Source: Tubulanus polymorphus (Eukaryota > Nemertea > Palaeonemertea > Tubulaniformes > Tubulanidae). Taken from it: DNA of 64,000 bases. The notes under the pieces are model-generated. The model saw only the letters and a list, made by a program, of their open reading frames with translations. It was not told the origin of the DNA and did not search any database. Location: contig NC_134032.1 in NCBI RefSeq assembly GCF_964204645.1, positions 10,596,275 to 10,660,274 on the forward strand, in the 5' to 3' direction. Below are positions 8,853-58,929 of this stretch, one piece after another; positions within the stretch are counted from its first letter, which is position 1, and every line of letters starts with the position of its first letter. The translations under genes were made by a program, and so were the position numbers.

Positions 8853-8908
8853 CGTTGGTATAAGCCCATCCGATTATAAAAGCTTACCACCAACGATTAG
8901 GTAACTAA
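8853..8908. repeat. Short dispersed hairpin repeat, copy 2
   Basis: Matches 595-645. Here the arms are better preserved: CGTTGGTATAAGC at the left and GCTTACCACCAACG at the right, giving a ~44-bp hairpin. Confidence 0.55.
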
Positions 8909-9689
8909 CTAGAATGATGATTAATCATGAATACGTGGTATAAGTGGGTTTCCCCAATGACTCAAATAGACCGCTTTCCTCGTGCATGATGTGAGTTAGT
9001 TATCTCGGGGTGCATGAACTGTCCGTGACTAATAAACTAATTTCATTAGTAAATGTTTACGCGGTTTCTATGATATGAAGACATGTATTGGTGTGAATCT
9101 TTAACTGAAGAGCTATCGGTCGGTATAAAATTATAAATTATTCTAGAATATTCCAGAAGGAAAAAAAACAGTCGGCCTATAAATTCGGAGGTAGCTGTTG
9201 GGAATCAAGTAGGCCTAATTTATTTCAATGCCTTATTCAGTTCCTCGACCACTATATTTATTGTTCAGCTGACTACTGGCGTGTATTCAACTCGGCGGTG
9301 GAACCTTTCATAATGTAAACCCATTGAACGATAGAGAGACACAATTGCGGTTTTTCAGAGTTGTTGATATCATTCTGACACGCGCTATTGATTACGTCAC
9401 CGGTTGACCACGGTGTACACAAGCATAGGCCATTCACCTCAGCTTACTCACACTGTGAACATGCTACCGTGGATTCTCCTCCTGGCGATTTTCGCTGCGC
9501 TACCACTCCTGCTCCTGTTCCTGCTTCCTGGGGAACGACGTCTATATGTTTTATGTGTTACTGTTCGTCTCTGTGCTGTCCTGTACTGTTCCGTGTTTAT
9601 TAATCCGTTTTATTTTTCAGGGTCTAATCCGTTTTATTTTTCAGGGCCGATTTCTCTGTCGAATTTCAACGTTTGCTGGAACAAAACTA
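8909..9689. other. Unassigned region with a hydrophobic ORF
   Basis: An ORF at 9404-9904 (+) begins with a strongly hydrophobic stretch (MLPWILLLAIFAALPLLLL), then runs into a decayed reverse-transcriptase fragment. It is probably fortuitous. At 9600-9646 a 22-bp block ending TTTTATTTTTCAGGG, which looks like a splice acceptor, occurs twice in tandem. Confidence 0.3.
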
Positions 9690-9900
9690 ATGCCCGAAAG
9701 CGTCAGCTCTCCGTCGCCGGTCATGTGTCAAGGATGTCAGACAAAGAGTCGGTCAGGAAATGGCTACCCTCTACACGCCCTCATATGGAACACGAAAACC
9801 AGGATGACGAGGCCTCACTCTCCCCACGTATCAACAGAGTGTGTCTGTTGACGTCAATGATGAGCAAGTCAGTCGGATTGCACAGGTTAAAAGTGGAGTG
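9690..9900 (+). pseudogene. Decayed non-LTR reverse transcriptase C-terminal fragment
   Basis: Translation with frame jumps gives AGHVSRMSDKESVRKWL, an R..GHV.RM pattern. In the neighbouring frames come pieces resembling 'LYTPSHGTRKPGRPR' and 'NRVC.VTS'. This layout (GHVxRM, G.R..GRP, then a helical end) is the extreme C-terminus of many RTE/BovB-like LINE polyproteins. Frameshifts separate the pieces, so it is inactive. A second copy in inverted orientation is at 10240-10490. Confidence 0.55.
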
Positions 9901-9922
9901 GTAAAGCTGGACTGTCTACTAG

Positions 9923-10235
9923 TATTCATTGATTCCTTTTCAGGAATTGCTTCGGGTAAAGATTTAGTCTTGTCTTCCTTTGCGTTCTAGCATTCATTGA
10001 TTCCTTTTACGGGATTGCTTCGGGCAGGGATTAAATTCCCTGTCTTCCTTTGCGTGCTAGGATTCATTGATTCACTGCGGGATCGCTTGCATGCCAGCAT
10101 TCATTGATTCCTTTTAAGGGATTGCTTCGGGCAGGGATTAATTTCCCTGCCTTCCTTTGAGTGTTAGTATTCATTGATTCCCAGTGGGTTGCTTCGGACG
10201 GGATTAAGTCTTGCCTTCCTTTGGGTGCTAGTGCG
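9923..10235. repeat. Minisatellite, ~70-bp unit
   Basis: About five units start with ATTCATTGATTCCtttt and carry GGGATTGCTTCGGGCAGGGA and CTTCCTTTGyGTGCTAG. Starts are near 9923, 9991, 10061, 10099 and 10168; the third unit is truncated. It sits exactly between the two inverted reverse-transcriptase fragments. Confidence 0.75.
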
Positions 10236-10239
10236 GGCA

Positions 10240-10490
10240 ATCCAGTTGCGCTGCCCTACTTTTGGCTTGGGCAATTTGATAGGTTTGTCAGTTACTGACG
10301 TCACCCGGCACACCCTGTTGGTAAATGGTGAAAGTAAGGCGTCGTCATCCTGGTTTTCGCGTTCTGTGTGAGGGCGTGTAGAGGGCAGTATATTCCTGGC
10401 TGGCTCTTTGTCTGGTGTTCTCGGCATGTGGCCGACGACGGAGAGCTGTAAAGCTTTCGGACATTAGTTTTGTTCCGTACCAGGTTTTCA
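10240..10490 (-). pseudogene. Decayed non-LTR reverse transcriptase C-terminal fragment, inverted copy
   Basis: On the minus strand the ORF reads TPDKEPARNILPSTRPHTER and continues with TNRVCRVTSVTDKP, clearly homologous to the plus-strand fragment at 9690-9900. The two differ by substitutions and indels. Another frame holds CPLHALTQNAKTRM. No intact domain remains. Confidence 0.55.
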
Positions 10491-10518
10491 TCGCTCTTCT
10501 CTTTTTTTTTCATTTCAG

Positions 10519-10823
10519 GACTCCCAAGATGAAGAAGATGCTGAAGGCGACTACAGAAGATGGCGAAAAAAGAACACTGAACTCAGCAATATTGAAAGTT
10601 AAGTTGATTTACACATGTAAATTACGACGTATGATACAGAAAGGATTGTGTAACTACAGAATATCGTTCTTTTACTCATTTCAAGTTAATCCAGAAAGGC
10701 CCATTTAAAATCTGCCCACCAGAAGTGCCCACAAAAGACTCCACGTTGAATGAACCAAACGTCGAAAGTCCTGCCGCAACCAAACCTGGCAGTCTCATCC
10801 TGCATGGCAACAGGAATACATAA
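10519..10823 (+). other. Exon-like open segments of unknown protein
   Basis: A good polypyrimidine tract plus CAG precedes 10519. The segment 10519-10597 is open and charged (DSQDEEDAEGDYRRWRKKN). A second open segment at about 10685-10823 reads KGPFKICPPEVPTKDS and ends in TAA. The donor after 10597 would be weak (GTTAAG), and the phases of the obvious junction do not join the two frames, so they may be a broken gene or chance. The function is not recognised. Confidence 0.25.
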
Positions 10824-10944
10824 AGCTAAGTTGATTTTTCATATCTGGGGTAGAATGCATAGGCACTGGAGAGGAAAGAGACGCTGGTCAAGCTCACCAT
10901 CTCCGCACTACTTTATTGAAGCTCTGTGGCCGGTAGTAAATTGA

Positions 10945-13967
<3,023 letters not shown>

Positions 13968-14344
13968 ACTATATATATATGAATTGACACATTAATTATG
14001 ATCACTGATATTCGAAAGGATTTTCTGCTCACAAGATTCTGCTCTTTTTTTCAGCTATACTACTAATCAACTAGTAATAAAATCTACAAAATGATCTTCA
14101 ACCTTGTAATATAGATATTCCAAATCTCGATGTATTAAAATAGGCAGTCAACTTAATTGACCCCAATCAGTCGCTTGCCGGTTCAGTCTGGTCGGAAGAT
14201 TAATTGAATGAACCAGAACTGAATTTCCCAATTATGTGCTCGGATTTAAAGAAAAAGAAATTTATGTAAAATCGACCGCCGATCACACAACTATATCTGT
14301 ACTTCGATTTCCGATTTTGAAAAAAAACTTAAAACTACAACAAA

Positions 14345-14510
14345 ATTTAAAATTAGACAAAATTGCGACCTTGTAAACTTTCGGACTATTTACATGAAAA
14401 AAAAAGACCAAAGAAATGTAAAGTAGACAAAATTATCTTAAACCTTGTAAACTTTCGGACTGTTTACACGAAAAAAAGAGCAATGAAATGTAAAATTAGA
14501 CAACCAACTT
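14345..14510. repeat. Two-copy ~74-bp tandem repeat before the array
   Basis: CCTTGTAAACTTTCGGACT followed by GTTTACA.GAAAAAAA occurs at about 14370 and 14443. It leads directly into the first splice-donor-like site of the array at 14550. Confidence 0.65.
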
Positions 14511-14549
14511 GGGAGACCTCACCGATAATGAACCCGGCAATCACAGAAG
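14500..14549 (+). other. Putative leading exon end of the exon-like array
   Basis: The sequence CCGATAATGAACCCGGCAAT, then CACAGAAG before GTAATA, is homologous to the 3' end of every module exon in the array (GATAACGAACCCAACAATCA, then TAAAAG before GTAACT). It ends at a GT at 14550, but the upstream part is unrelated to the modules. If the array is transcribed, this is the natural first exon. Confidence 0.35.
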
Positions 14550-17500
14550 GTAATATTTCGAATTATTGCAATAAGTTCTGAATGAAATATTTTGTCATTA
14601 CAGGATATCTATTTTTGATCATTGCAGCTAAATTTCAACTATGAGAAAAAACCCAGCTTGAAAACAACTACTCGCCCAAAATGGACCAACTTGAACAGCG
14701 CACAGATGGGCCAACAGAATTGAACTCATTAACGCACAAACTTTAGATGATCCACGCCGATAACGAACCAAGCAATCATAAAAGGTAACTTGATATACAT
14801 GAAATTATTACGATTACTTCTTATTGAAATATTTTGTCATTAAAGGGAATCTTCTTTTGATCATTAAAGCTAAATTTCAACTATGCGAAAAAACCCAGTT
14901 TGAGAACAACTACTCATCCAAAATCGGCCAACTTGAACAGTGCACAGATGAGGCCAACAGAATCGAACTCATTAACGCACAAACTTTAGATGATCCACGC
15001 CGATAACGAACCAAGCAATGATAAAAGGTAATTTATTATACATGAAATTATTACGATTACTTCTTATTGAAATATTTTGTCATTAAAGGGAATCTTCTTT
15101 TGATCATTAAAGCTAAATTTCAACTATGCGAAAAAACCAAGTTTGAGAACAACTACTCGACAAAAATCGACCAACTTGAACGGCGCACAGCCAACTAGGA
15201 TCGAACTCATTACCAATCAACTAATAAGATAATCGCCGATAATGAAACCAGTCATCATAAAAGGTAACTTGATATACATGGAATTATTACGATTAATTCT
15301 TATTGAAATATTTTGTCATTAAAGGATATCTTCTTTTAATCATTGCAGCTAAATTTCAACTATGAGAAAAAACCCAACTTGAGAACAACTACTCGCCCAA
15401 AATCGACCAATTTGAACAGCGCACAGATGAGGCCAACAGAATCGAACTCATTTACCAACCAACTAATAAGATAATTGCCGATAACAAACCCAACAATCAT
15501 AAAAGGTAACTTGATATACATGAAATTATTACGATTAATTCTTATTGAAATATTTTGTCATTAATGGATATCTTCTTTTAATCATTGCAGCTAAATTTCA
15601 ACTATGTGAAAAAACCCAGTTTGAGAACAACTACTCGTCAAAAATCGACCGACTTGAACGGCGCACAGCCAACTAGGATCGAACTCATTAACCAATCAAC
15701 TAATAAGATAATCGCCGATAATGAAACCAGCCATCATAAAAGGTAACTTGATATACATGAAATTATTACGATTAATTCTCATTGAAATATTTGGTCATTA
15801 CAGGATATCTTCTTTTCATCATTGCAGCTAAATTTCAACTATGCAAAGAAACCCAGCTTGAGATCAACTACTCGTCCAAAATCGGCAAACTTGAACAGCG
15901 CACAGATGAGGCCAACAGAATTGAACTCATTAACGCACAAACTTTAGATGATCCCCGCCGATAACGAACCAAGCAATCATAAAAGGTAACTTGATATACA
16001 TGAAATTATTACGATTAATTCTTATTGAGATATTTTGTCATTAAAGCATATCTTCTTTTGATCATTAAAGCCAAATGTCAACTATGCGAAAAAACCCAAC
16101 TTGAGAACAACTACTCGTCAAAAAACCAACCAACTTGAACAGCACACAGCCAACTAGGATCGAACTCATTAACCAATCAACTAATAAGATAATCGCCGAT
16201 AATGAAACCAGTAATCATAAAAGGTTACTTGACATACATGGAATTATTACGATTAATTCTTATTGAAATCTTTTGTCATTAAAGGATATCTTCTTTTAAT
16301 CATTGCAGCTAAATTTCAACTATGCGAAAAAACCCAGTTTGAGAACAACTACTCGTAAAAAATTGACCAACTTGAACGGCGCACAGCCAACTAGGATCGA
16401 ACTCATTACCAATCAACTAATAAGATAATCGCCGATAATGAAACCAGCCATCATAAAAGGTAACTTGATATACATGGAATTATTATGATTAATTCTTATT
16501 GAAATATTTTGTCATTAAAGGATATCTTCTTTTAATCATTGCAGCTAAATTTCAACTATGCAAAGAAACCCAGCTTGAGATCAACTACTCGTCCAAAATC
16601 GGCCAACTTGAACAGCGCACAGATGAGGCCAACAGAATTGAACTCATTAACGCACAAACTTTAGATGATCCCCGCCGATAACGAACCAAGCAATCATAAA
16701 AGGTAACTTGATATACATGAAATTATTAAGATTAATTCTTATTGAGATATTTTGTCATCCAAGCATATCTTCTTTTGATCATTAAAGCCAAATGTCAACT
16801 ATGCGAAAAAACCCAGTTTGAGAACAACTACTCGTCAAAAAACCGACCAACTTGAACGGCACACAGCCAACTAGGATCGAACTCATTAACCAATCAACTA
16901 ATAAGATAATCGCCGATAATGAAACCAGCAATCATAAAAGGTAACATGATATACATGGAATTATTACGATTAATTCTTATTGAAATATTTTGTCATTAAA
17001 GGATATCTTCTTTTGATCATTGCAGCTAAATTTCAACAATGAGAAAAAACCCAGTTTGAGAACAACTACTCGTCCAAAATCGACCAACTTGAACAGCGTA
17101 CAGATGAGGCCAACAGAATTGAACTCATTAACCCACCAACTTTAGATGATCCACACCGATAACGAACCAAGCAATCATGATAGGTTACTTGATATACATG
17201 AAATAATTACGATTAATTCTTATTGAAATATTTTGTCATTACAGGATATCTTCTTTTGATCATTGCAGCTAAATTTCAACTATGAGAAAAAACCCAGTTT
17301 GAGAACAACTACTCGTTAAAAATCGACCAACTTGAACGGCGCACAACCAACTAGGATCGAACTCATTACCAATCAACTAATAAGATAATCGCCGATAACG
17401 AAACCAGCAATCATAAAAGGTAACTTGATATACATGAAATTATTACCATTAATTCTTATTGAAATATTTGGTCATTACAGGATATCCTCTTTTAATCATT

Positions 17501-20500
17501 GCAGCTAAATTTCAACTATAAGAAGAAATCCAGCTTGAGATCAGCTTCTCGTCCGAAAAACGAACAACTGGTACAGCAAACAGATGAGGCCAACAGAATC
17601 GAACTCATTTACCAATCAACTAATAAGATAATCGCCGATAATGAAACCAGCAATCATAAAAGGTAACATGATATACATGGAATTATTACGATTAATTCTT
17701 ATTGAAATATTTTGTCATTAAAGGATATCTTCTTTTAATCATTGCAGCTAAATTTCAACTATGCGAAAAAACCCAGTTTGAGAACAACTACTCGTCAAAA
17801 ATCGACCAACTTGAACAGCGCACAGATCAACCACTCGTCTAAAATCGACCAACTTGAACAGCGTACAGATGAGGCCAACAGAATTGAACTCATTAACCCA
17901 CCAACTTTAGATGATCCACACCGATAACGAACCAAGCAATCATAATAGGTTACTTGATATACATGAAATAATTACGATTAATTCGTATTGAAATATTTTG
18001 TCATTACAGGATATCTTCTTTTGATCATTGCAGCTAAATTTCAACTATGAGAAAAAACCCAGTTTGAGATCAACTACTCGTCAAAAATCGACCAACTTGA
18101 ACGGCGCACAGCCAACTAGGATCGAACTCACTAACCAAGCAACTAAAAAGATAATCGCCGATAACGAACCCAGCAATCATAAAAGGTATCTTGATATACA
18201 TAAAATCATTATGATTAATTCGTATTGAAATATTTTGTCATTACAGGATATCTTCTTTTGATCATTGCAGCTAAATTTCAACTATGAGAAAAAACCCAGT
18301 TTGAGAACAACTACTCGTAAAAAATTGACCAACTTGAACGGCGCACAGCCAACTAGGATCGAACTCATTACCAATCAACTAATAAGATAATCGCCGCTAA
18401 TGAAACCAGTCATCATAAAAGGTAACTTGATATACATGGAATTATTATGATTTATTCTTATTGAAATATTTTGTCATTAAAGGATATCTTCTTTTAATCA
18501 TTGCAGCTAAATTTCAACTATGAGAAAAAACCCAACTTGGGAACAACTACTCCCCCAAAATTGAACAATTTGAACAGTGCACAGATGAGGCCAACAGAAT
18601 CGAACTCATTTACCAAACAACTAATAAGATAATTGCCGATAACGAACCCAACAATCATAAAAGGTAACTTGATATACATGAAATTATTAAGATTAATTCT
18701 TATTGAAATATTTTGTCATTAAAGGATATCTTCTTTTAATCATTGCAGCTAAATTTCAACTATGCGAAAAAACCCAGTTTGAGAACAACTACTCGTAAAA
18801 AATTGACCAACTTGAACGGCGCACAGCCAACTAGGATCGAACTCATTACCAATCAACTAATAAGATAATCGCCGATAATGAAACCAGCCATCATAAAAGG
18901 TAACTTGATATACATGGAATTATTATGATTAATTCTTATTGAAATATTTTGTCATTAAAGGATATCTTCTTTTAATCATTGCAGCTAAATTTCAACTATG
19001 CAAAGAAACCCAGCTTGAGATCAACTACTCGTCCAAAATCGGCCAACTTGAACAGCGCACAGATGAGGCCAACAGAATTGAACTCATTAACGCACAAACT
19101 TTAGATGATCCCCGCCGATAATGAACCAAGCAATCATAAAAGGTAACTTGATATACATGAAATTATTAAGATTAATTCTTATTGAGATATTTTGTCATTC
19201 AAGCATATCTTCTTTTGATCATTAAAGCCAAATGTCAACTATGCGAAAAAACCCAGTTTGAGAACAACTACTCGTCAAAAAACCGACCAACTTGAACGGC
19301 ACACAGCCAACTAGGATCGAACTCATTAACCAATCAACTAATAAAATAATCGCCGATAATGAAACCAGCAATCATAAAAGGTAACATGATATACATGGAA
19401 TTATTACGATTAATTCTTATTGAAATATTTTGTCATTAAAGGATATCTTCTTTTGATCATTGCAGCTAAATTTCAACAATGAGAAAAAACCCAGTTTGAG
19501 AACAACTACTCGTCCAAAATCGACCAACTTGAACAGCGTACAGATGAGGCCAACAGAATTGAACTCATTAACCCACCAACTTTAGATGATCCACACCGAT
19601 AACGAACCAAGCAATCATGATAGGTTACTTGATATACATGAAATAATTACGATTAATTCTTATTGAAATATTTTGTCATTACAGGATATCTTCTTTTGAT
19701 CATTGCAGCTAAATTTCAACTATGAGAAAAAACCCAGTTTGAGAACAACTACTCGTTAAAAATCGACCAACTTGAACGGCGCACAACCAACTAGGATCGA
19801 ACTCATTACCAATCAACTAATAAGATAATCGCCGATAACGAAACCAGCAATCATAAAAGGTAACTTGATATACATGAAATTATTACCATTAATTCTTATT
19901 GAAATATTTGGTCATTACAGGATATCCTCTTTCAATCATTGCAGCTAAATTTCAACTATAAGAAGAAATCCAGCTTGAGATCAGCTTCTCGTCCGAAAAA
20001 CGAACAACTGGTACAGCAAACAGATGAGGCCAACAGAATCGAACTCATTTACCAATCAACTAATAAGATAATCGCCGATAATGAAACCAGCAATCATAAA
20101 AGGTAACATGATATACATGGAATTATTACGATTAATTCTTATTGAAATATTTTGTCATTAAAGGATATCTTCTTTTAATCATTGCAGCTAAATTTCAACT
20201 ATGCGAAAAAACCCAGTTTGAGAACAACTACTCGTCAAAAATCGACCAACTTGAACAGCGCACAGATCAACCACTCGTCTAAAATCGACCAACTTGAACA
20301 GCGTACAGATGAGGCCAACAGAATTGAACTCATTAACCCACCAACTTTAGATGATCCACACCGATAACGAACCAAGCAATCATAATAGGTTACTTGATAT
20401 ACATGAAATAATTACGATTAATTCGTATTGAAATATTTTGTCATTACAGGATATCTTCTTTTGATCATTGCAGCTAAATTTCAACTATGAGAAAAAACCC

Positions 20501-23500
20501 AGTTTGAGAACAACTACTCGTCAAAAATCGACCAACTTGAACGGCGCACAGCCAACTAGGATCGAACTCACTAACCAAGCAACTAAAAAGATAATCGCTG
20601 ATAACGAACCCAGCAATCATAAAAGGTATCTTGATATACATAAAATCATTATGATTAATTCGTATTGAAATATTTTGTCATTACAGGATATCTTCTTTTG
20701 ATCATTGCAGCTAAATTTCAACTATGAGAAAAAACCCAGTTTGAGAACAACTACTCGTAAAAAATTGACCAACTTGAACGGCGCACAGCCAACTAGGATC
20801 GAACTCATTACCAATCAACTAATAAGATAATCGCCGCTAATGAAACCAGCCATCATAAAAGGTAACTTGATATACATGGAATTATTATGATTTATTCTTA
20901 TTGAAATATTTTGTCATTAAAGGATATCTTCTTTTAATCATTGCAGCTAAATTTCAACTATGAGAAAAAACCCAACTTGGGAACAACTACTCGCCCAAAA
21001 TTGAACAATTTGAACAGTGCACAGATGAGGCCAACAGAATCGAACTCATTTACCAAACAACTAATAAGATAATTGCCGATAACGAACCCAACAATCATAA
21101 AAGGTAACTTGATATACATGGAATTATTATGATTAATTCTTATTGAAATATTTTGTCATTAAAGGATATCTTCTTTTAATCATTGCAGCTAAATTTCAAC
21201 TATGCAAAGAAACCCAGCTTGAGATCAACTACTCGTCCAAAATCGGCCAACTTGAACAGCGCACAGATGAGGCCAACAGAATTGAACTCATTAACGCACA
21301 AACTTTAGATGATCCCCGCCGATAACGAACCAAGCAATCATAAAAGGTAACTTGATATACATGAAATTATTAAGATTAATTCTTATTGAGATATTTTGTC
21401 ATTCAAGCATATCTTCTTTTGATCATTAAAGCCAAATGTCAACTATGCGAAAAAACCCAGTTTGAGAACAACTACTCGTCAAAAAACCGACCAACTTGAA
21501 CGGCACACAGCCAACTAGGATCGAACTCATTAACCAATCAACTAATAAGATAATCGCCGATAATGAAACCAGCAATCATAAAAGGTAACATGATATACAT
21601 GGAATTATTACGATTAATTCTTATTGAAATATTTTGTCATTAAAGGATATCTTCTTTTGATCATTGCAGCTAAATTTCAACAATGAGAAAAAACCCAGTT
21701 TGAGAACAACTACTCGTCCAAAATCGACCAACTTGAACAGTGTACAGATGAGGCCAACAGAATTGAACTCATTAACCCACCAACTTTAGATGATCCACAC
21801 CGATAACGAACCAAGCAATCATGATAGGTTACTTGATATACATGAAATAATTACGATTAATTCTTATTGAAATATTTTGTCATTACAGGATATCTTCTTT
21901 TGATCATTGCAGCTAAATTTCAACTATGAGAAAAAACCCAGTTTGAGAACAACTACTCGTTAAAAATCGACCAACTTGAACGGCGCACAACCAACTAGGA
22001 TCGAACTCATTACCAATCAACTAATAAGATAATCGCCGATAACGAAACCAGCAATCATAAAAGGTAACTTGATATACATGAAATTATTACCATTAATTCT
22101 TATTGAAATATTTGGTCATTACAGGATATCCTCTTTTAATCATTGCAGCTAAATTTCAACTATAGGAAGAAATCCAGCTTGAGATCAGCTTCTCGTCCGA
22201 AAAACGAACAACTGGTACAGCAAACAGATGAGGCCAACAGAATCGAACTCATTTACCAATCAACTAATAAGATAATCGCCGATAATGAAACCAGCAATCA
22301 TAAAAGGTAACATGATATACATGGAATTATTACGATTAATTCTTATTGAAATATTTTGTCATTAAAGGATATCTTCTTTTGATCATTGCAGCTAAATTTC
22401 AACTATGAGATAAAACCCAGTTTGAGAACAACTACTTGTCAAAAATCGACCAACTTGAACGGCGCACAGCCAACTAGGATCGAACTCACTAACCAAGCAA
22501 CTAAAAAGATAATCGCCGATAACGAACCCAGCAATCATAAAAGGTATCTTGATATACATAAAATCATTATGATTAATTCGTATTGAAATATTTTGTCATT
22601 ACAGGATATCTTCTTTTGATCATTGCAGCTAAATTTCAACTATGAGAAAAAACCCAGTTTGAGAACAACTACTCGTAAAAAATTGACCAACTTGAACGGC
22701 GCACAGCCAACTAGGATCGAACTCATTACCAATCAACTAATAAGATAATCGCCGCTAATGAAACCAGCCATCATAAAAGGTAACTTGATATACATGGAAT
22801 TATTATGATTTATTCTTATTGAAATATTTTGTCATTAAAGGATATCTTCTTTTAATCATTGCAGCTAAATTTCAACTATGAGAAAAAACCCAACTTGGGA
22901 ACAACTACTCGCCCAAAATTGAACAATTTGAACAGTGCACAGATGAGGCCAACAGAATCGAACTCATTTACCAAACAACTAATAAGATAATTGCCGATAA
23001 CGAACCCAACAATCATAAAAGGTAACTTGATATACATGAAATTATTAAGATTAATTCTTATTGAAATATTTTGTCATTAAAGGATATCTTCTTTTAATCA
23101 TTGCAGCTAAATTTCAACTATGCGAAAAAACCCAGTTTGAGAACAACTACTCGTCAAAAATCGACCAACTTGAACAGCGCACAGATCAACCACTCGTCTA
23201 AAATCGACCAACTTGAACAGCGTACAGATGAGGCCAACAGAATTGAACTCATTAACCCACCAACTTTAGATGATCCACACCGATAACGAATCAAGCAATC
23301 ATAATAGGTTACTTGATATACATGAAATAATTACGATTAATTCGTATTGAAATATTTTGTCATTACAGGATATCTTCTTTTGATCATTGCAGCTAAATTT
23401 CAACTATGAGAAAAAACCCAGTTTGAGAACAACTACTCGTCAAAAATCGACCAACTTGAACGGCGCACAGCCAACTAGGATCGAACTCACTAACCAAGCA

Positions 23501-26500
23501 ACTAAAAAGATAATCGCCGATAACGAACCCAGCAATCATAAAAGGTATCTTGATATACATGAAATCATTATGATTAATTCTTATTGAAATATTTTGTCAT
23601 TAAAGGATATCTTCGTTTAATCATTGCAGCTTAATTTGAACTATGCGAAAAAACCCAGTTTGAGAACAACTACTCGTCAAAAATCGACCAACTTGAACGG
23701 CGCACAGCCAACTAGGATCGTACTCATTAACCAATCAACTAATAAGATAATCGCCGATAATGAAACCAGCAATCATAAAAGGTAACTTGACATACATGGA
23801 ATTATTACGATTAATTCTTATTGAAATATTTTGTCATTAAAGGATATCTTCTTTTAATCATTGCAGCTAAATTTCACCTATGCGAAAAAACCCAGTTTGA
23901 GAACAACTACTCGTCAAAAATCGACCAACTTGAACAGCGCACAGATCAACTACTCGTCCAAAATCGACCAACTTGAACAGCGTACAGATGAGGCCAACAG
24001 AATTGAACTCATTAACCCACCAACTTTAGATGATCCACACCGATAACGAACCAAGCAATCATAATAGGTTACTTGATATACATGAAATAATTACGATTAA
24101 TTCTTATTGAAATATTTTGTCATTACAGGATATCTTCTTTTGATCATTGCAGCTAAATTTCAACTATGAGAAAAAACCCAGTTTGAGAACAACTACTCGT
24201 AAAAAATTGACCAACTTGAACGGCGCACAGCCAACTAGGATCGAACTCACTAACCAAGCAACTAAAAAGATAATCGCCGATAACGAACCCAGCAATCATA
24301 AAAGGTATCTTGATATACATGAAATCATTATGATTAATTCTTATTGAAATATTTTGTCATTAAAAGGATATCTTCTTTTAATCATTGCAGCTAAATTTGA
24401 ACTATGCGAATAAACCCAGTTTGAGAACAACTACTCGTCAAAAATCGAACAATTTGAACAGTGCACAGATCAGGCCAACAGAATCGAACTCATTTACCAA
24501 CCAACTAATAAGATAATTGCCGATAACGAACCCAACAATCATAAAAGGTAACTTGATATACATGAAATTATTATGATTAATTCTTATTGAAATATTTTGT
24601 CATTAATGGATATCTTCTTTTAATCATTGCAGCTAAATTTGAACTATGCGAAAAAACCCAGTTTGAGAACAACTACTCGTAAAAAATTGACCAACTTGAA
24701 CGGCGCACAGCCAACTAGGATCGAACTCATTACCAATCAACTAATAAGATAATCGCCGATAATGAAACCAGCCATCATAAAAGGTAACTTGATATACATG
24801 GAATTATTATGATTAATTCTTATTGAAATATTTTTTCATTAAAGGATATCTTCTTTTAATCATTGCAGCTAAATTTCAACTATGAGAAAAAACCCAACTT
24901 GAGAACAACTACTCGCCCAAAATCGAACAATTTGAACAGTGCACAGATGAGGCCAACAGAATCGAACTCATTTACCAAACAACTAATAAGATAATTGCCG
25001 ATAACGAACCCAACAATCATAAAAGGTAACTTGATATACATGAAATTATTAAGATTAATTCTTATTGAAATATTTTGTCATTAAAGGATATCTTCTTTTA
25101 ATCATTGCAGCTAAATTTCAACAATGAGAAAAAACCCAGTTTGAGAACAACTACTCGTCCAAAATCGACCAACTTGAACAGCGTACAGATGAGGCCAACA
25201 GAATTGAACTCATTAACCCACCAACTTTAGATGATCCACACTGATAACGAACCAAGCAATCATAATAGGTTACTTGATATACATGAAATAATTACGATTA
25301 ATTCTTATTGAAATATTTTGTCATTACAGGATATCTTCTTTTGATCATTGCAGCTAAATTTCAACTATGAGAAAAAACCCAGTTTGAGAACAACTACTAG
25401 TAAAAAATTGACCAACTTGAATGGCGCACAGCCAACTAGGATCGAACTCACTAACCTAGCAACTAAAAAGATAATCGCCGATAACGACCCAGCAATCATA
25501 AAAGGTATCTTGATATACATGAAATCATTATGATTAATTCTTATTGAAATATTTTGTCATTAAAGGATATCTTCTTTTAATCATTGCAGCTAAATTTGAA
25601 CTATGCGAAAAAACCCAGTTTGAGAACAACTACTCGTCAAAAATCGAACAATTTGAACAGTGCACAGATCAGGCCAACAGAATCGAACTCATTTACCAAC
25701 CAACTAATAAGATAATTGCCGATAACGAACCCAACAATCATAAAAGGTAACTTGATATACATGAAATTATTACGATTAATTCTTATTGAAATATTTTGTC
25801 ATTAATGGATATCTTCTTTTAATCATTGCAGCTAAATTTGAACTATGCGAAAAAACCCAGTTTGAGAACAACTACTCGTAAAAAATTGACCAACTTGAAC
25901 GGCGCACAGCCAACTAGGATCGAACTCATTACCAATCAACTAATAAGATAATCGCCGATAATGAAACCAGCCATCATAAAAGGTAACTTGATATACATGG
26001 AATTATTATGATTAATTCTTATTGAAATATTTTGTCATTAAAGGATATCTTCTTTTAATCATTGCAGCTAAATTTCAACTATGAGAAAAAACCCAACTTG
26101 AGAACAACTACTCGCCCAAAATCGAACAATTTGAACAGTGCACAGATGAGGCCAACAGAATCGAACTCATTTACCAAACAACTAATAAGATAATTGCCGA
26201 TAACGAACCCAACAATCATAAAAGGTAACTTGATATACATGAAATTATTAAGATTAATTCTTATTGAAATATTTTGTCATTAAAGGATATCTTCTTTTAA
26301 TCATTGCAGCTAAATTTCAACTATGCGAAAAAACCCAGTTTGAGAACAACTACTCGTCAAAAATCGACCAACTTGAACAGCGCACAGATCAACCACTCGT
26401 CTAAAATCGACCAACTTGAACAGCATACAGATGAGGCCAACAGAATTGAACTCATTAACCCACCAACTTTAGATGATCCACACCGATAACGAATCAAGCA

Positions 26501-29500
26501 ATCATAATAGGTTACTTGATATACATGAAATAATTACGATTAATTCGTATTGAAATATTTTGTCATTACAGGATATCTTCTTTTGATCATTGCAGCTAAA
26601 TTTCAACTATGAGAAAAAACCCAGTTTGAGAACAACTACTCGTAAAAAATTGACCAACTTGAACGGCGCACAGCCAACTAGGATCGAACTCATTACCAAT
26701 CAACTAATAAGATAATCGCCGCTAATGAAACCAGCCATCATAAAAGGTAACTTGATATACATGGAATTATTATGATTTATTCTTATTGAAATATTTTGTC
26801 ATTAAAGGATATCTTCTTTTAATCATTGCAGCTAAATTTCAACTATGAGAAAAAACCCAACTTGGGAACAACTACTCGCCCAAAATCGAACAATTTGAAC
26901 AGTGCACAGATGAGGCCAACAGAATCGAACTCATTTACCAAACAACTAATAAGATAATTGCCGATAACGAACCCAACAATCATAAAAGGTAACTTGATAT
27001 ACATGAAATTATTACGATTAATTCTTATTGAAATATTTTGTCATGAAAGGATATGTTCTTTTAATCATTGCAGCTAAATTTCAACTATGCGAAAAAACCC
27101 AGTTTGAGAACAACTACTCGTCAAAAATCGACCAACTTGAACAGCGCACAGATCAACCACTCGTCTAAAATCGACCAACTTGAACAGCGTACAGATGAGG
27201 CCAACAGAATTGAACTCATTAACCCACCAACTTTAGATGATCCACACCGATAACGAACCAAGCAATCATAATAGGTTACTTGATATACATGAAATAATTA
27301 CGATTAATTCGTATTGAAATATTTTGTCATTACAGGATATCTTCTTTTGATCATTGCAGCTAAATTTCAACTATGAGAAAAAACCCAGTTTGAGAACAAC
27401 TACTCGTCAAAAATCGACCAACTTGAACGGCGCACAGCCAACTAGGATCGAACTCACTAACCAAGCAACTAAAAAGATAATCGCCGATAACGAACCCAGC
27501 AATCATAAAAGGTATCTTGATATACATGAAATCATTATGATTAATTCTTATTGAAATATTTTGTCATTAAAGGATATCTTCGTTTAATCATTGCAGCTTA
27601 ATTTGAACTATGCGAAAAAACCCAGTTTGAGAACAACTACTCGTCAAAAATCGACCAACTTGAACGGCGCACAGCCAACTAGGATCGTACTCATTAACCA
27701 ATCAACTAATAAGATAATCGCCGATAATGAAACCAGCAATCATAAAAGGTAACTTGACATACATGGAATTATTACGATTAATTCTTATTGAAATATTTTG
27801 TCATTAAAGGATATCTTCTTTTAATCATTGCAGCTAAATTTCAACTATGCGAAAAAACCCAGTTTGAGAACAACTACTCGTCAAAAATCGACCAACTTAA
27901 ACAGCGCACAGATCAACTACTCGTCCAAAATCGACCAACTTGAACAGCGTACAGATGAGGCCAACAGAATTGAACTCATTAACCCACCAACTTTAGATGA
28001 TCCACACCGATAACGAACCAAGCAATCATAATAGGTTACTTGATATACATGAAATAATTACGATTAATTCTTATTGAAATATTTTGTCATTACAGGATAT
28101 CTTCTTTTGATCATTGCAGCTAAATTTCAACTATGAGAAAAAACCCAGTTTGAGAACAACTACTCGTAAAAAATTGACCAACTTGAACGGCGCACAGCCA
28201 ACTAGGATCGAACTCACTAACCAAGCAACTAAAAAGATAATCGCCGATAACGAACCCAGCAATCATAAAAGGTATCTTGATATACATGAAATCATTATGA
28301 TTAATTCTTATTGAAATATTTTGTCATTGAAGGATATCTTCTTTTAATCATTGCAGCTAAATTTGAACTATGCGAAAAAACCCAGTTTGAGAACAACTAC
28401 TCGTCAAAAATCGAACAATTTGAACAGTGCACAGATCAGACCAACAGAATCGAACTCATTTACCAACCAACTAATAAGATAATTGCCGATAACGAACCCA
28501 ACAATCATAAAAGGTAACTTGATATACATGAAATTATTACGATTAATTCTTATTGAAATATTTTGTCATTAATGGATATCTTCTTTTAATCATTGCAGCT
28601 AAATTTGAACTATGCGAAAAAACCCAGTTTGAGAACAACTACTCGTAAAAAATTGACCAACTTGAACGGCGCACAGCCAACTAGGATCGAACTCATTACC
28701 AATCAACTAATAAGATAATCGCCGATAATGAAACCAGCCATCATAAAAGGTAACTTGATATACATGGAATTATTATGATTAATTCTTATTGAAATATTTT
28801 GTCATTAAAGGATATCTTCTTTTAATCATTGCAGCTAAATTTCAACTATGAGAAAAAACCCAACCTGAGAACAACTACTCGTCAAAAATTGACCAACTTG
28901 AACGGCGCACAGCCAACTAGGATCGAACTCATTACCAATCAACTAATAAGATAATCGCCGATAATGAAACCAGCCATCATAAAAGGTAACTTGATATACA
29001 TGGAATTATTATGATTAATTCTTATTGAAATATTTTGTCATTAAAGGATATCTTCTTTTTATCATTGCAGCTAAATTTCAACTATGCGAAAAAACCCAGT
29101 TTGAGAACAACTACTCGCCCAAAATCGACCAACTTGAACAGCGCACAGATGGGGCCAACAGAATCGAACTCATTAACGCATTAACTTTAGATGATCCACG
29201 CTGATAACGAACCAAGCAATCATAAAAGGTAACTTGATATACATGGAATTATTTCGATTAACTCTTATTGAAATATTTTGTCATTACAGGATATCTTCTT
29301 TTAATCGTTGCAGCTAAATTTCTACTATGAGAAAAAACCAAGTTTGAGAACAACAACTCGTCCAAAATCGACCAACTTGAACGGCGCACAGCCAACAAGG
29401 ATCGAACTTATTAACCAATCAACTAATAAGATAATCGCCGATAACAAACCCAGCAATCATAAAAGGTAACTTGATATACATGAAATTATTACCATTAATT

Positions 29501-30514
29501 CTTATTGAAATATTAGGTCATTACAGGATATCTTCTCTTAATCATTGCAGCTTAATTTCAACTATGAGAAAAAAACCCAGCTGGAGAACAACTACTCGCC
29601 CAAAATCACCCAACTTGAACCGCGCACAGATGAGGCCAACAGAATCGAACTCATTTACCAACCAACTAATAAGATAATTGCCAATAACGAACCCAACAAT
29701 CAAAAAGGTAACTTGATATACATGAAATTATTACGATTAATTCTTATTGAAATATTTTGTCATTACAGAATATCTTCTTTTAATCATTGCAGCTAAATTG
29801 CAACTATGCGAAAAAGCCCAGTTTGAGAACAACTACTCGTTAAAAATCGACCAACTTGAACGGCGCACAACCAACTAGGATCGAACTCATTACCAATCAA
29901 CTAATAAGATAATCGCCGATAACGAAACCAGCAATCATAAAAGGTAACTTGATATACATGAAATTATTACCATTAATTCTTATTGAAATATTTGGTCATT
30001 ACAGGATATCCTCTTTTAATCATTGCAGCTAAATTTCAACTATAAGAAGAAATCCAGCTTGAGATCAGCTTCTCGTCCGAAAAACGAACAACTGGTACAG
30101 CAAACAGATGAGGCCAACAGAATCGAACTCATTTACCAATCAACTAATAAGATAATCGCCGATAATGAAACCAGCAATCATAAAAGGTAACATGATATAC
30201 ATGGAATTATTACGATTAATTCTTATTGAAATATTTTGTCATTAAAGGATATCTTCTTTTGATCATTGCAGCTAAATTTCAACAATGAGAAAAAACCCAG
30301 TTTGAGAACAACTACTCGTCCAAAATCGACCAACTTGAACAGTGTACAGATGAGCCTAATAGAATCGAACTCATTAACCCACCAACTTTAGATGATCCAC
30401 ACCAATAACGAACCAAGCAATCATAAAAGGTTACTTGATATACATGAAATTATTACGATTAATTCTTATTGAAATATTTTGTCATTACAGGATATCTTCT
30501 TTTAATCGTTGCAG
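14550..30514 (+). repeat. Array of ~65 exon/intron-like modules (~237-242 bp)
   Basis: Each unit consists of an 85-bp intron-like spacer (GTAACTTGATATACATGAAA to CTTCTTTTAATCATTGCAG) and a 151-158-bp exon-like block starting CTAAATTTCAACTATG and ending CAATCATAAAAG. The spacer begins with GT in every unit inspected (GTAACTT, GTAACAT, GTTACTT, GTATCTT) and ends in AG after a pyrimidine-rich tract (usually TTGCAG, sometimes TTAAAG). Several block types are interspersed: one with ATGAGGCCAACAGAAT, one with a 5-bp shorter GCCAACTAGGAT, one ending ACTTTAGATGATCC, one with an extra ~43 bp, and one strongly diverged. In one frame a block reads KFQLCEKTQFENNYSSKI and then a glutamate/glutamine-rich helix. 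Block lengths are not multiples of 3, and joining one block to the next gives AGC TAA at the junction, so a continuous chained protein is not supported. Copies at 16499 and 18939 (and linked units) repeat at 2,440 bp. Confidence 0.85.
25590..25746 (+). other. Representative module exon, open in one frame (157 bp)
   Basis: The acceptor is ATCATTGCAG ending at 25589; the donor GTAACTTG starts at 25747. From the third base the block is open for 51 codons: KFELCEKTQFENNYSSKIEQ, then a polar helix-like stretch, then NKIIADNEPNNHK. Short heptad-like spacing of hydrophobic residues suggests helix or coiled-coil potential. A close copy lies in the unit at 28311-28517. No family is recognised. Expression is unproven. 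Confidence 0.35.
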
Positions 30515-30930
30515 CTAAATATCAACTATGAGAAAAAACCCAGCTTGAGATCAACTACTCATCAGAAAATCTACAAGTAGATGAATACTGATTGACCCAT
30601 TTGCTGATGAAAACTGCAGAAGCCCAGATTAGAAGTTGAGGAGCCAGCAACAGATTAATCACTCAACGATTCTTCTACAAATGGTGGTTGATTTCTATAA
30701 AATATTTTATCAGGAGCAGCAGAGACTATAGTGAAACTTATAAACACTGATTTGAGCGACAAAACTAATGGATTATCTCATAAACACTGATTCAGGATAA
30801 GCACTGTTTTAAAAGCAGCAAAGACAACAGTGTATCTTATTAGGAGCAGCATAAACAATAGCGCATCTTATAAACACTGAGATCCAGGAGCGGCAAAAAC
30901 AATAGCGGATTTCTGCCGTAAAGAATTGAT
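30515..30930 (+). other. Putative terminal exon and small repeats closing the array
   Basis: The last module begins normally after GTTGCAG at 30514, but after about 65 bp (near 30575) it changes to unique sequence with no donor at the expected place. It then runs into four imperfect short repeats (GGAGCAGC.., ACAATAGyG, CTTATAAACACTGA) between about 30710 and 30910. It could be the last exon of a transcript spanning the array. Confidence 0.3.
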
Positions 30931-31181
30931 TTTTTTACTTATCACCCTTTTTCAAACCAGTCTGATATAGTGTTTTAAAGGAAATTATTTTATAATGTTT
31001 AATGCAATGTTAGAGTCTAATCAAAGCTAAGCTCCATTAATTCACGATGTTGGTATTCGATCCTTGGATGATAGAGAAGTCAAGTTAGGTTAGTCACTAG
31101 GGGTAAATGGTCGCGTCGAGCGCCTTGTTTTGGCTGCAGGTCTGTTGAGTTAACTCCTAAACTGAGATATAGTTTCAACAT
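30931..31181. other. Unassigned spacer
   Basis: No gene, repeat or regulatory signal recognised. Confidence 0.5.
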
Positions 31182-33276
31182 GATATTGTGAGTTTAATCT
31201 TTAAACTTTACCATAGTTAAACATAGTCAACTATGGCTATTTGTCCGTGTAGGTATCACATAGTTAGGAAACATAGAACATAACGTTAGACCAGTGTTGA
31301 TGTACAAATATTAAGTATTTGCTGAATTGTAGATGTATTAATTTGATGGATTTATATTTTCGAAGGCCCATGTAACTGATTTCACAATTGAATCGTATAT
31401 GTCGATTTTCACATTTATTTTTAACTTTGAGCCTCCATTAATCTGTTTGATGATCATAGCTACTTATTTGAAATCAAAAGCTTTATTTGAAAGGAGACCA
31501 TTATTTACATTTGAGAGGTAAAGCTAGGAATAACAAAGTTATAGCTAGGACTAATTTTGAACGTTTTAAACATTGTTTATAGCTGTTTGAACTTTTTTTA
31601 TTGTAATGGGTAAATCCATATCACGAGATGGCTCTCATGAATAATCACTTAGCTTCAAATTGGGTGTATAATGATTATTAAGGAGTGGCAGTGAATCGGT
31701 AGTGCTTTTCTAAAATGGGCCCAGAAACTTTACAGTGAAAAAATGCCTGCAGTTGTAAATAGAGGAGTATAAATAATACGCAATACAAACTACGAGTAAA
31801 TAAATTAATAAAAAAATAAATTAGAAAAAACCAATAAATAATAAGTAGTAAATAATACAAAATACAAGTACATACATAAATAGATAATATTAAAAAATAG
31901 ATAAAAATCATAAACAACAATACAAACAAACAACAAATTAATATTCTATTTACATGAAAAGGCATTTTTTCAAATATCTATCAACAAGGTTCTTCATTTA
32001 TCGAACAACCTTCCCTAAGTATAGCAAAAACCCTAGATCTTTTCTGTTGTTATTCAAAGCATTCTATCGGACTCAGTTATTATAATGAACAAAACAAATA
32101 ACCATAAACCTTAACTAAATCGAACACACTTAAGAAAATAACTGATATGATAGAATGCTTTGAATAACTGTGATGAAAGATCGACCATCCTATGAACTAG
32201 CTGCGCTCAATCACTGCTGTGACTGTTGATATTGTGAGTTTAATCTTTAAACTTTACCATAGTTAAACATAGTCAACTATGGCTATTTGTCCGTGTAGGT
32301 ATCACATAGTTAGGAAACATAGAACATAACGTTAGACCAGTGTTGATGTACAAATATTAAGTATTTGCTGAATTGTAGATGTATTAATTTGATGGATTTA
32401 TATTTTCGAAGGCCCATGTAACTGATTTCACAATTGAATCGTATATGTCGATTTTCACATTTATTTTTAACTTTGAGCCTCCATTAATCTGTTTGATGAT
32501 CATAGCTACTTATTTGAAATCAAAAGCTTTATTTGAAAGGAGACCATTATTTACATTTGAGAGGTAAAGCTAGGAATAACAAAGTTATAGCTAGGACTAA
32601 TTTTGAACGTTTTAAACATTGTTTATAGCTGTTTGAACTTTTTTTATTGTAATGGGTAAATCCATATCACGAGATGGCTCTCATGAATAATCACTTAGCT
32701 TCAAATTGGGTGTATAATGATTATTAAGGAGTGGCAGTGAATCGGTAGTGCTTTTCTAAAATGGGCCCAGAAACTTTACAGTGAAAAAATGCCTGCAGTT
32801 GTAAATAGAGGAGTATAAATAATACGCAATACAAACTACGAGTAAATAAATTAATAAAAAAATAAATTAGAAAAAACCAATAAATAATAAGTAGTAAATA
32901 ATACAAAATACAAGTACATACATAAATAGATAATATTAAAAAATAGATAAAAATCATAAACAACAATACAAACAAACAACAAATTAATATTCTATTTACA
33001 TGAAAAGGCATTTTTTCAAATATCTATCAACAAGGTTCTTCATTTATCGAACAACCTTCCCTAAGTATAGCAAAAACCCTAGATCTTTTCTGTTGTTATT
33101 CAAAGCATTCTATCGGACTCAGTTATTATAATGAACAAAACAAATAACCATAAACCTTAACTAAATCGAACACACTTAAGAAAATAACTGATATGATAGA
33201 ATGCTTTGAATAACTGTGATGAAAGATCGACCATCCTATGAACTAGCTGCGCTCAATCACTGCTGTGACTGTTGAT
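31182..33276. repeat. Perfect 1,046-bp tandem duplication
   Basis: Unit 1 is 31182-32227 and unit 2 is 32228-33273, with the junction GAT repeated at the end. I saw no differences between the copies, including an identical 95-codon AT-rich minus-strand ORF in each that I regard as non-coding. Each unit contains an inverted repeat of about 31 bp (TTATTCAAAGCATTCTATC and its complement) around a ~55-bp loop at about 32044-32170 and 33090-33216. This is a very recent duplication or an assembly duplicate. Confidence 0.9.
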
Positions 33277-33572
33277 TGTTATACGGGGGTAGACACTTAC
33301 TATCTAAAATCTGGTACATACATTTTTAGAAAGAATGTAAAACAGCTATAAACTTAAGTTATTGATGTTATTGATTAGTTACCGATTGTATGATTATGTT
33401 GATGTTTTTGAAGCTGCCAGAAAGAAACATCAGAATACTTAGTATTTAATGCCAAGGTGCTTGGACATCTTTAAGTCAGGGCAAAATTCTAGAAAGTAAT
33501 GATTAGTTGATACTTAGATTTCCAGAGTGAATCTGTATGTTCCATCTCTAGTTTAAATGCTCTATGTTGGAG

Positions 33573-33608
33573 CATAGAACTCAAATCAAATTGATTTGAG
33601 GTCTATGG
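33573..33608. mobile_element. Mini-hairpin insertion, copy H2
   Basis: A 36-bp hairpin, arms CATAGAACTCAAATCAA and TTGATTTGAGGTCTATG, flanked on both sides by TTGGAG (33567-33572 and 33609-33614). The paralogous repeat near 35117 reads TATGTTGGAGACTT with no insertion. Confidence 0.65.
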
Positions 33609-34703
33609 TTGGAGACTGTTATTGTAACACATAGCCGAACACATGTTTGGAAATTAGGAACTTGCATGATGATTCCTCGTTTAAGATATAATTGTTGTGT
33701 GAATAAAACGATGTTCATTTTCATCATTCATGTTGAAACTTTTAAGTTGTTAATTTCTATAGCAACAATTCCACTGTGGTGGTTCATAAATTACTGATAG
33801 AATAGAAGGAGCAGTTTCTTGATAGGCTATCTCGAGGATACAGTGCTAATTGGTCAATTGTCCTAGCTTAGTTTAACCGCATCTGTGTGGGGCCTGTAAT
33901 ATCTGGACAAGAAGAATTTCTGATCTTAATATAAAGTTGTATTTATATCTACTATCAAGTTGAATAATACAAATTAAGAAGTTGCCGTAGCTTCGTCAGT
34001 CAAACCATATTTATGAAGATACTCGATTTATCTTAGATCATCACGAAGAAAAACCTTTATAATAGTTTGCAGGGTTTGATCTAAGGATTAAAATGCCAGT
34101 TGACCTTGGGGCAAGCATATGTGATATCACTTGCCCCCCTCAAAAATCAACTTGCCCTATACATGAGTAGTCCAATTGAGACACAATCATCCCTTGCATC
34201 GAGTGGGATAAAAGCTTTGAGATATAGAATTACACAAGCCCGGTGGACGAGTGATTGTGATAAACTACATTTCCTAATGAAAATATACTTGTCCCGGGAA
34301 ATTGGACTAGTGCTTAAATCAGACCCTGCTTTGTTTCTAATGTAACATTTGTGAAATAAGCTAGTTGATAATTAAGGAAATCTCTCAGACGAGGAAATTT
34401 TTGGCAATGTTTTTAGTTTTCTTGTAATAACTAAGATTAATTAGTTTACCTAACGCTTTCCAGAGTGAGTGAATTTGTAGGTTTTATGTTGAACTGTTTT
34501 CTAAATAACTCATTTAACGGGCTATAATTGTTGTGTAAGAATAAAATGATATACATGTTTCGGCATTCACACTGTGCTGCTCATCAATGGTTCATAAAAT
34601 ACTATTTTCATTAAGGCCCTCATGGAATAGAGTCGCAAAATAGAGGAGCAGTCTCTTGATAAATGAGGATATATGAACAGTATTAATCAGTAGATTATGC
34701 TAG

Positions 34704-34723
34704 CTATGGACTCTAAAACCATT
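34704..34723. mobile_element. Half mini-hairpin, truncated copy
   Basis: CTATGGACTCTAAAACCAT matches one arm and loop of hairpin H1 but the second arm is missing. The paralogous position near 33863 lacks it. Confidence 0.4.
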
Positions 34724-35739
34724 GTTTAACAATTTATATATGGGTTCTGAAATATCTGCACAAGAAGCACCTCAAAAAGTTAGTTATTGAATCTTAACTT
34801 AATTGTAGCAAAGCCATTAATTATTAGTAATTGCCCTAGCTCTATTCAAATTGGCAGTTGAACAATACTCGATTTATATAGTCTTGCTGAATGCATAGAA
34901 GAGAATACCTCCAAAATACTTTGCATTAAATGTAACATTTGAGAAAATTGCCAATTTGATAATGTCTTGAAACCTCAAGGCAAAGGTGGCAAAACTAGCT
35001 ATCTTGTAAAATAATGTTAATGAAAATTAAATCAAAGACTGTTTAGTTAAACTTATCTTAAGCTTTCCTGATTGAATTTGTGGTTTTATCTCCGGTTACA
35101 ATGTTTTTATGTTGGAGACTTTTTTGAAATACAGGTCACGTTTTTGTAAATGACTGAGGCACTTCCTCCAGTAGATGTACCTGTCATTTAGGTATAATTG
35201 TTTTTGTGGAGATAAAATGACATGTTCGTGTCAATTGTTCATTAAACATTGATTTATTAAGGTCCTATCGAGTTGAGCTTTTTCTTGATAAATGAGATGT
35301 CCTCAATCGATGTCATTTGAAAAGTTGACATGATAGATTCATATTTCATGAAATATAACAAAGTGTCGGTTATATTGACCTCATGAATTGTCAAATTCAT
35401 AATCTCAGACTAGTCCAATTTTCGGTTTTTTATGGATCAAAGTCTATAATTCTTAGTGTATTTTTGTTATTTTCCTATTGATGCAAATTGTATAAATCAG
35501 CTGTAGTGGAAATGTATCGTAGATAAAGAAAGACTTCTAAATACCTTACGTGTAACTAGTACAATTTCATACATAGTAATATAAATAAAATTACTATTAA
35601 AATTTGAGAAAATAAGCTAAAAGTTAATAATATGATATGTGAAAATAAAATGATGTAAGAATGTAAATCAGATTGATTACTTAATCCTACGCTTTCCAGA
35701 GTATTTGGCCAGGTTTATCTCTGGTTTTAGTGCGGGGAG

Positions 35740-35768
35740 CCATGGACTCACGGTTTAAGAGTCCATGG
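35740..35768. mobile_element. Mini-hairpin insertion, copy H3
   Basis: Arms CCATGGACTC and GAGTCCATGG around a 9-base loop. It is the first of three hairpins lying almost end to end. Confidence 0.6.
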
Positions 35769-35775
35769 TTGTCGG

Positions 35776-35805
35776 CCATAGACATTTCTGGTTTAGAGTC
35801 TATGG
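35776..35805. mobile_element. Mini-hairpin insertion, copy H4
   Basis: Arms CCATAGAC and GTCTATGG around a 14-base loop; followed by TTGGA before the next hairpin. Confidence 0.6.
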
Positions 35806-35810
35806 TTGGA

Positions 35811-35855
35811 CCATGGGCGTATATAAGCTCTCGTTTATAGTTTATACGCCTATGG
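35811..35855. mobile_element. Mini-hairpin insertion, copy H5
   Basis: Arms CCATGGGCGTATA and TATACGCCTATGG, 13 bp with one mismatch; flanked by GTTGGA on both sides (35806-35810 region and about 35858-35863). Confidence 0.6.
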
Positions 35856-36321
35856 TGGTTGGACTAGTTGTTTTTGAAAGTCCGTGTTTGAGGAACTTAC
35901 ATTAAAATTCCTCGAGCACAAACCTGGCATTTTGTATAATTGTTGTATATATGAGAATAAATATGATTGATTTTGAAATTTGTCATTCGTTTAGTTAAGC
36001 AACAAGTGTTACTAAAATGAAGCACCACTAAAAACGAAAACTATATGCACCCGAGAAAACCGACCAGGCAATTTACGTTTCCGTCAGAGGTGGCACAGAG
36101 CGCCCCAAGTGATGATTTCGAGTATCTTCGGACTTCTTTTTAGTCATTCATAGTTCTAATACCCGAAAGTGCATAGGCCTTCGTTTTAGTAGCACATAGT
36201 TTTTAGTAACACCCCCATTGCACTGCCCTGCTATAAATTAACTGCTCATTTTCACGAACCCAGGGCCACCTTCTGAGTTAGTCGACTATAGTCGAACTAA
36301 ACGAAACCGAATGTCCATTAG

Positions 36322-36569
36322 CAGGGCCGTCGCGGCCCACTTTTTTGCTTAACAAAATTTGTTCAAAAGCACGCTGTACCGCGTAGCAGCTCGTCGTTCT
36401 CTGTACTAAGTGGTTGGCTCACGACTTCTCATGCTTCTGTGAATGAGACCGTGAAATGGCCCCAAAACATATCTCCGGCGATTGAATTTTCAAATTTTTC
36501 AAGGGGAGGGCCCCAAACCACCCTTCAGAAATAAGCCTCGCCACTGAAAAATTCCCTCCGACGGCTCTG
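36322..36569. mobile_element. MITE with CAGrGCCGTCG ends
   Basis: A 248-bp element: left end CAGGGCCGTCGCGGCC, right end in reverse complement CAGAGCCGTCGGAGGG. ATTAG lies immediately outside both ends, a likely target duplication. hAT-like ends; no ORF. Confidence 0.6.
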
Positions 36570-36672
36570 ATTAGTCATTCGGTTATTAGTTCGATCCGAC
36601 CACTAGTTGACTAGATACGAAAACCGAATTTGGTCCTGGCAGTTGAGTCGGTTGCTGTTCCCAGGAAACCTT

Positions 36673-58800: not shown

Positions 58801-58929
58801 GGGGTGCATAAATCAAAAAGGTATTCTGGCCTGTACGCCCCAGAAATCCATTGAAATCAGCGATCTCGCGTACAGCTCTCACTTCCGCTGACCACCAAAT
58901 CTGACTACCAGGGGCGCCTCAATTACTTT

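Follow-up and report, generated by a model that had tools for sequence, protein, structure and literature searches.

Several described systems resemble parts of the locus reported here. FIRRE, in the accounts of PMC4820808 and PMC7734150, is a non-coding RNA in which a block of about 150 nt, the RRD, recurs with each copy forming an exon of its own. The LCR16a/NPIP family, as outlined in PMC7419210, is an interspersed duplicon that retains introns, has variable flanks and contains a gene with a variable tandem repeat. HINE elements of the Helentron type are described in PMC7492417 as a dispersed left flank, a tandem array and a right flank. Ordinary satellite DNA likewise consists of head-to-tail units of mixed types.

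The window, a stretch of 64,000 nucleotides from the nemertean Tubulanus polymorphus, contains a tandem array that compares with each of these systems. As in the published descriptions of FIRRE, a block of roughly 150 nt recurs, here with AG and GT at all 65 blocks, which we predict to be exons. The likeness is one of layout, set by description rather than by sequence comparison, and FIRRE as described is a single X-linked mammalian locus with proven transcripts, whereas here 65 tight units of about 240 bp lie between dispersed flanks and were read from DNA alone. LCR16a, in its published outline, is a primate duplicon with a protein-encoding VNTR, and families of its kind consist of transcribed genes that are often under positive selection; in contrast, the repeat here straddles an exon-intron boundary and has kept no reading frame. 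HINEs as described have defined ends, subterminal inverted repeats and a 3′ palindrome, whereas here we found no fixed ends, and the copies contain exons with introns. Unlike ordinary satellite DNA, the unit encloses a whole predicted intron between two partial exons. We read the whole as a satellite with introns, its blocks being predicted non-coding exons of optional use, and among open-licence papers we found no printed description of this repeat.

Anatomy and origin of the unit

The array comprises 65 complete units, with blocks cut at the acceptor, followed by a last exon (Table 1). Block lengths fall into six classes of 151 (16 blocks), 158 (15), 157 (12), 152 (11), 201 (7) and 153 nt (4; n = 65), and all 65 spacers measure 85 bp except one of 86 bp. 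Tandem Repeats Finder reported periods of 243 (14561–23192, with further rows) and 479 (14561–30571) for the window, consistent with head-to-tail tandem units of satellite type, each of which likely represents one exon and one intron. An earlier note on this DNA had described an array of about 16 kb with about 65 modules, a donor GT in every variant, block indels of 1, 5 and about 43 bp and a leading segment that ends in a homologous donor. The unit count, the dinucleotides (AG as well as GT at 65 of 65), the length classes and the leading GT agree with that description, and its exon-plus-intron anatomy is upheld as a prediction from sequence. The loss of a donor that it proposed for the last block is not required: two copies that lack the array, on C12 and on C1 (L018), consist by eye of a leading exon joined through a single intron to a last exon of the same type as in the window.

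Table 1 Features of the array and of its carrier duplicon in the window.
Feature	Position	Strand	Remarks
Duplicon left part, window copy	7937..14054	+	Interrupted by a high-copy repeat of ~850 bp at 8066-8911
Candidate upstream exon (predicted)	10519..10597	+	Acceptor TTTCAG kept in 6/6 aligned copies; frameshifting indels between copies
Leading exon (predicted)	14055..14549	+	AG 14053-14054; donor GT 14550-14551 (read from sequence); last ~50-85 nt match 3′ part of blocks
First intron (predicted), from the leading donor up to the first acceptor	14550..14627	+	
Array of 65 composite blocks (151-201 nt), each with an 85-bp (once 86-bp) spacer	14628..30514	+	AG and GT at all 65
Last exon (predicted; 3′ end provisional)	30515..30930	+	Acceptor AG 30513-30514 (read from sequence); first ~60-100 nt match 5′ part of blocks
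Duplicon right part with direct duplication of ~1046 bp	31181..33276	+	31181-32230 and 32227-33276 100% identical in window copy
Duplicon right part, degenerate repeats	33280..36245	+	AATAAA at 33702, 34540, 35584, 35644, 35956
Palindromic MITE-like high-copy repeat, ~164 bp	36246..36640	.	Split by an insert of ~255 bp at 36322-36575

Long near-identical arrays are hard to assemble, and this array is of that type; copies falsely expanded during assembly would account for its length. Adjacent units differ, however, with a mean identity of 0.83 at lag 1, and the same anatomy was found at 20 sampled places; we consider this explanation very improbable.

Local alignments reveal that block starts, over about the first 60–100 nt, match last exons, while block ends, over about the final 50–90 nt, match leading exons. 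All 12 alignments (three units against two leading and two last exons) scored above the best of 200 letter shuffles, ten of them clearly and two, both to leading exons, by only 1–2 points (46 vs 45 and 43 vs 41), and two of the block-exon alignments extend further with gaps. The predicted unit is a last-exon start joined to a leading-exon end and an intron, in line with the exon-derived satellite that the earlier note had offered as an alternative. Since the block is a composite of both exons, the array probably goes back to a tandem duplication across the 85-bp intron, in which the breakpoints would lie inside two exons and the duplicated segment would consist of part of one exon, the intron and part of the next. 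Breakpoints that fall inside both exons would also explain why the chained blocks lack a reading frame, and the founding transcription unit would have been non-coding or decayed. The copy without an array on C12 has a leading exon that is similar to a unit, and for that reason it may represent an array that has contracted. Identity is 0.858 within arrays (585 random pairs) and 0.852 between arrays (5393 pairs); units are thus barely more alike within than between arrays, and the unit sub-types are therefore likely older than the dispersal of the duplicon, with arrays that grew or shrank afterwards.

Dispersal of the carrier duplicon

The genome searched comprises 267.8 Mb in 77 contigs. For each flank query (left, 13990–14560; right, 30560–31790) the best 40 candidates were scored, and matches within 45 kb of each other, the window included, were merged into place clusters, such that flanks more than 45 kb apart would count twice. 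The left flank fell into 37 place clusters and the right flank into 40, window included in both, which does not fit the unique flanking sequence claimed previously. Both searches combined gave at least 61 place clusters, and at least 77 with a far-left query, on contigs C1–C12, with both flanks together in 16 clusters among the matches listed. Arrays of the unit also recur on several contigs, and the acceptor-type pattern had 352 genome matches with at most three mismatches vs 3 for a reversed control. Of the single transcription unit with cassette exons proposed in the earlier note, the exon-intron anatomy is supported, but not the single-locus gene.

The window copy has sequence in common with the others between 7937 and about 36.6 kb. 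In some other copies the left part extends further, and on both C12 and C11 it enters a TXNL1-like gene. The exons of this gene, upstream in the C12 copy and separated there by introns, match Thioredoxin and PITH in Pfam (of six exons, four score above the curated cut-off and two below it), a layout that we take to be that of TXNL1; the C11 copy aligns with the C12 copy. At L067 (C11:10412000-10421900) the TXNL1-like copy has the active-site motif WRPC, not CGPC, by eye, and an inserted tandem repeat of about 92 bp; it is likely a decayed duplicate. Left breakpoints vary among the 13 left ends compared, and right-tail groups vary among the 14 right ends compared, past the palindromic repeat. 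As in a core duplicon, then, interspersed copies keep their introns (the TXNL1-like exons on C12 and C11, and the array intron in the subfamily 2 described below) and variable flanks surround a common core.

A central tandem array between two conserved modules at many places is also the layout of a mobile element, and oyster HINE elements are reported to bear such arrays (PMC7492417, in the part that describes them). An inert satellite carried within a dispersed element, for example a non-autonomous Helentron-like one with central tandem repeats, would have inherited its splice signals without selection on them; we regard this as somewhat unlikely. Elements of this class insert at TT and leave the target site unduplicated. 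Its ends argue against it, in that no common terminus, left or right, was found among the copies compared and the breakpoints differ between them. The palindrome near the right end, which recalls the HINE-type end, is an independent high-copy repeat (best 40 of 818 first-look genome candidates scored) that occupies the same spot in the right ends compared, with tails that diverge beyond it. A fixed transposon end near 36640 was accordingly ruled out, the apparent end being this nested palindrome, and we prefer "duplicon" to "transposon" because no common terminus was found. The palindrome (36246–36321 and 36576–36640) is a possible breakage site of the duplicon. Processed retrocopies were rejected as well: ten left-flank matches that begin near the leading-exon acceptor seemed spliced, and at the nine such loci fetched a deletion (~13610–14056) is present and the alignment continues through the following intron, as it would not in spliced copies.

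Within the duplicon, the duplication of about 1046 bp is either very recent or an assembly duplication. The five AATAAA sites in Table 1, putative poly(A) signals, are a raw count out of 13 such motifs in 30561–36640. Seven duplicon ORFs had no Pfam match, TMEM18 appearing only at E 0.095, below the cut-off, and Rfam at gathering thresholds gave no match in the window. The nested repeat of about 850 bp has 41 other matches listed at 96–100% identity (best 40 of 3006 candidates), and by its sequence is a recently active element. A pair of inverted repeats of about 180 bp (9678–9856 and 10296–10476, about 80% alike) flanks short tandem repeats and is perhaps an old nested element.

Other features of the window were noted in passing. 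A QPRT-like protein is encoded beside the array; over 98% of the query it is 100% identical to a T. polymorphus protein. On the minus strand, fragments in 36676–37213 read as a zinc finger of PHD type (Pfam E 1.8e-4, under the cut-off) and, by eye, as a coiled coil; they are possibly a LINE ORF1 remnant. The ORF at 50814–51260 encodes a CLCA N-terminal domain (Pfam E 8.6e-22) of the calcium-activated chloride channel family, that at 57066–57653 has no Pfam match, and those at 58455–58811 and 59547–59906 have a long identical peptide stretch in common, a local duplication.

Splice dinucleotides across arrays

The earlier note proposed that splice-site columns be compared with the rest of the unit. 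A first set of 181 units, 65 from the window and 116 from 14 other arrays, was drawn from 254 profile hits, from which duplicates, incomplete units and hits at the loci of the window itself had been removed. AG is present in 181 of these units and GT in 180, the sole exception being GC. Of 57360 dinucleotide pairs of the unit, 64 are equally conserved, a rank of 0.11%, and 22 of 242 columns are invariant; this rank and those below are not probabilities, as the units share ancestry. A replication set of 84 full units from five further arrays, with 13 partial units dropped, kept AG in 84/84 and GT in 68/84, and the conservation of the donor was not repeated in it (rank 0.44). This failure arose because one array amplified a GA donor: all 16 exceptions are GA and lie in 16 of the 26 units of L068 (C8:249000-255480). 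The L068 array, with its change from GT to GA, offers a natural splice-dead control. When the sets are combined, with the first set included, 265 units in 20 arrays retain AG in 265 and GT in 248, with an array-level rank of 0.28% for the pair, 1.7% for AG alone and 8.8% for GT alone.

A more diverged subfamily provides a further comparison. Nine loci of subfamily 2 (L073–L081) were compared, and the eight others align to L077 at about 90–96% in their longest stretches. The region with the leading-exon acceptor is deleted and the array is much more diverged, yet the array intron is kept. A profile search in three of these loci hit 30 introns, of which 20 were full and 10 partial. GT and AG are present in all 20 full introns, nine of which are distinct, at 68% mean identity (rank 1.8%), and the partial introns listed retain, by eye, whichever dinucleotide they include. 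Donors here are often GTAAGT rather than GTAACT.

The proposed excess of conservation at the splice columns therefore held in the first and combined sets and in the diverged array, and failed for the donor in the replication set. The amplification of a donor-dead unit in one array is what an inert element would allow. In the combined set, moreover, variation reaches fewer arrays in spacer columns (4.4 and 3.0) than in block columns (6.6), which also suits such an element; constraint or youth is therefore not confined to the splice sites. Against this stand the acceptor, lost in none of 265 units, and the persistence of GT and AG at 68% identity. A genome search for the junction that splicing of two blocks would create gave no exact match among those listed, the best having one mismatch.

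Reading frame, RNA fold and a model of array growth

The array has no kept reading frame. Of 181 units, 46 are open in one forward frame, 1 in another and 10 in the third, block lengths fall into all three phases (90, 62 and 29 units), and the shares of synonymous variants by frame (0.28, 0.21 and 0.21, vs 0.22, 0.20 and 0.18 expected) carry no codon-position bias. In-silico spliced window blocks are interrupted by stops in every frame (233, 255 and 235), in agreement with the earlier view that a chained protein is unlikely; their longest open run is 103 codons, and on neither strand of the array does a stop-to-stop ORF reach 110 aa. In the consensus block one frame does read, by eye, like a coiled coil (KFQL*EKTQFENNYSSKIDQLEQ...), which would suit a protein-coding gene built of dozens of cassette exons, or one whose terminal exons are mutually exclusive. 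That frame is, however, the one open in 10 of 181 units, and predicted upstream exons 1–3 drew nine database candidates among proteins of similar length, none at E <= 0.001. A protein-coding array was rejected on the stops in all frames and the unkept frame, and coding by such a gene is very improbable.

A functional lncRNA with repeated exons, in which the block would act as an RNA domain shown repeatedly to a protein, fits the retained splice sites, the unkept frame and the predominant block length of 151–158 nt, close to the 156-bp exonic repeat that is described as making up seven of 13 human FIRRE exons (PMC4820808; length from PMC7734150). The flanks, at many places rather than one, speak against it, as do blocks that vary more than spacers and the RNA stability of five blocks, which is not unusual against shuffles (z −0.92 to +1.55). 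We consider this reading improbable.

With moderate confidence, we explain the array as a satellite of a composite block and an 85-bp GT...AG spacer, likely derived by tandem duplication across an intron, whose units would be splice-tolerant optional exons. The unit anatomy, the match to two exons, the lost frame, the dispersal of the flanks and the near-complete retention of the splice dinucleotides are what the data support directly. Against this explanation count the donor result that the replication set did not repeat, the conservation outside the splice sites, the lack of an exact match to a block-block junction among those listed and the ordinary RNA stability of the five blocks. The duplicon would be transcribed, the introns would be removed from the transcript and the blocks would serve as optional exons. 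Arrays could then range from none to the 65 units counted, and unit number would vary freely because the RNA would stay intact however many units were included or skipped. More tentatively, the satellite may be splice-competent, in that its units would keep a working donor and acceptor and dozens could accumulate in a transcribed, genome-wide duplicon with the mature RNA unaffected; splicing, rather than heterochromatin, would make such a satellite tolerable. Judged from sequence, splice-tolerant growth is the most likely mechanism, and an inert element with inherited signals its main rival.

If the units are spliced, a satellite can inhabit transcription units, and a unit equipped with intron boundaries of its own would multiply without effect on the transcript. 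The 20 sampled arrays, one with mostly dead donors, offer a test bed for whether splicing governs array growth. Even if the array is inert, it would be a clear case of a satellite likely begun by an intron-spanning tandem duplication and spread by an invertebrate duplicon.
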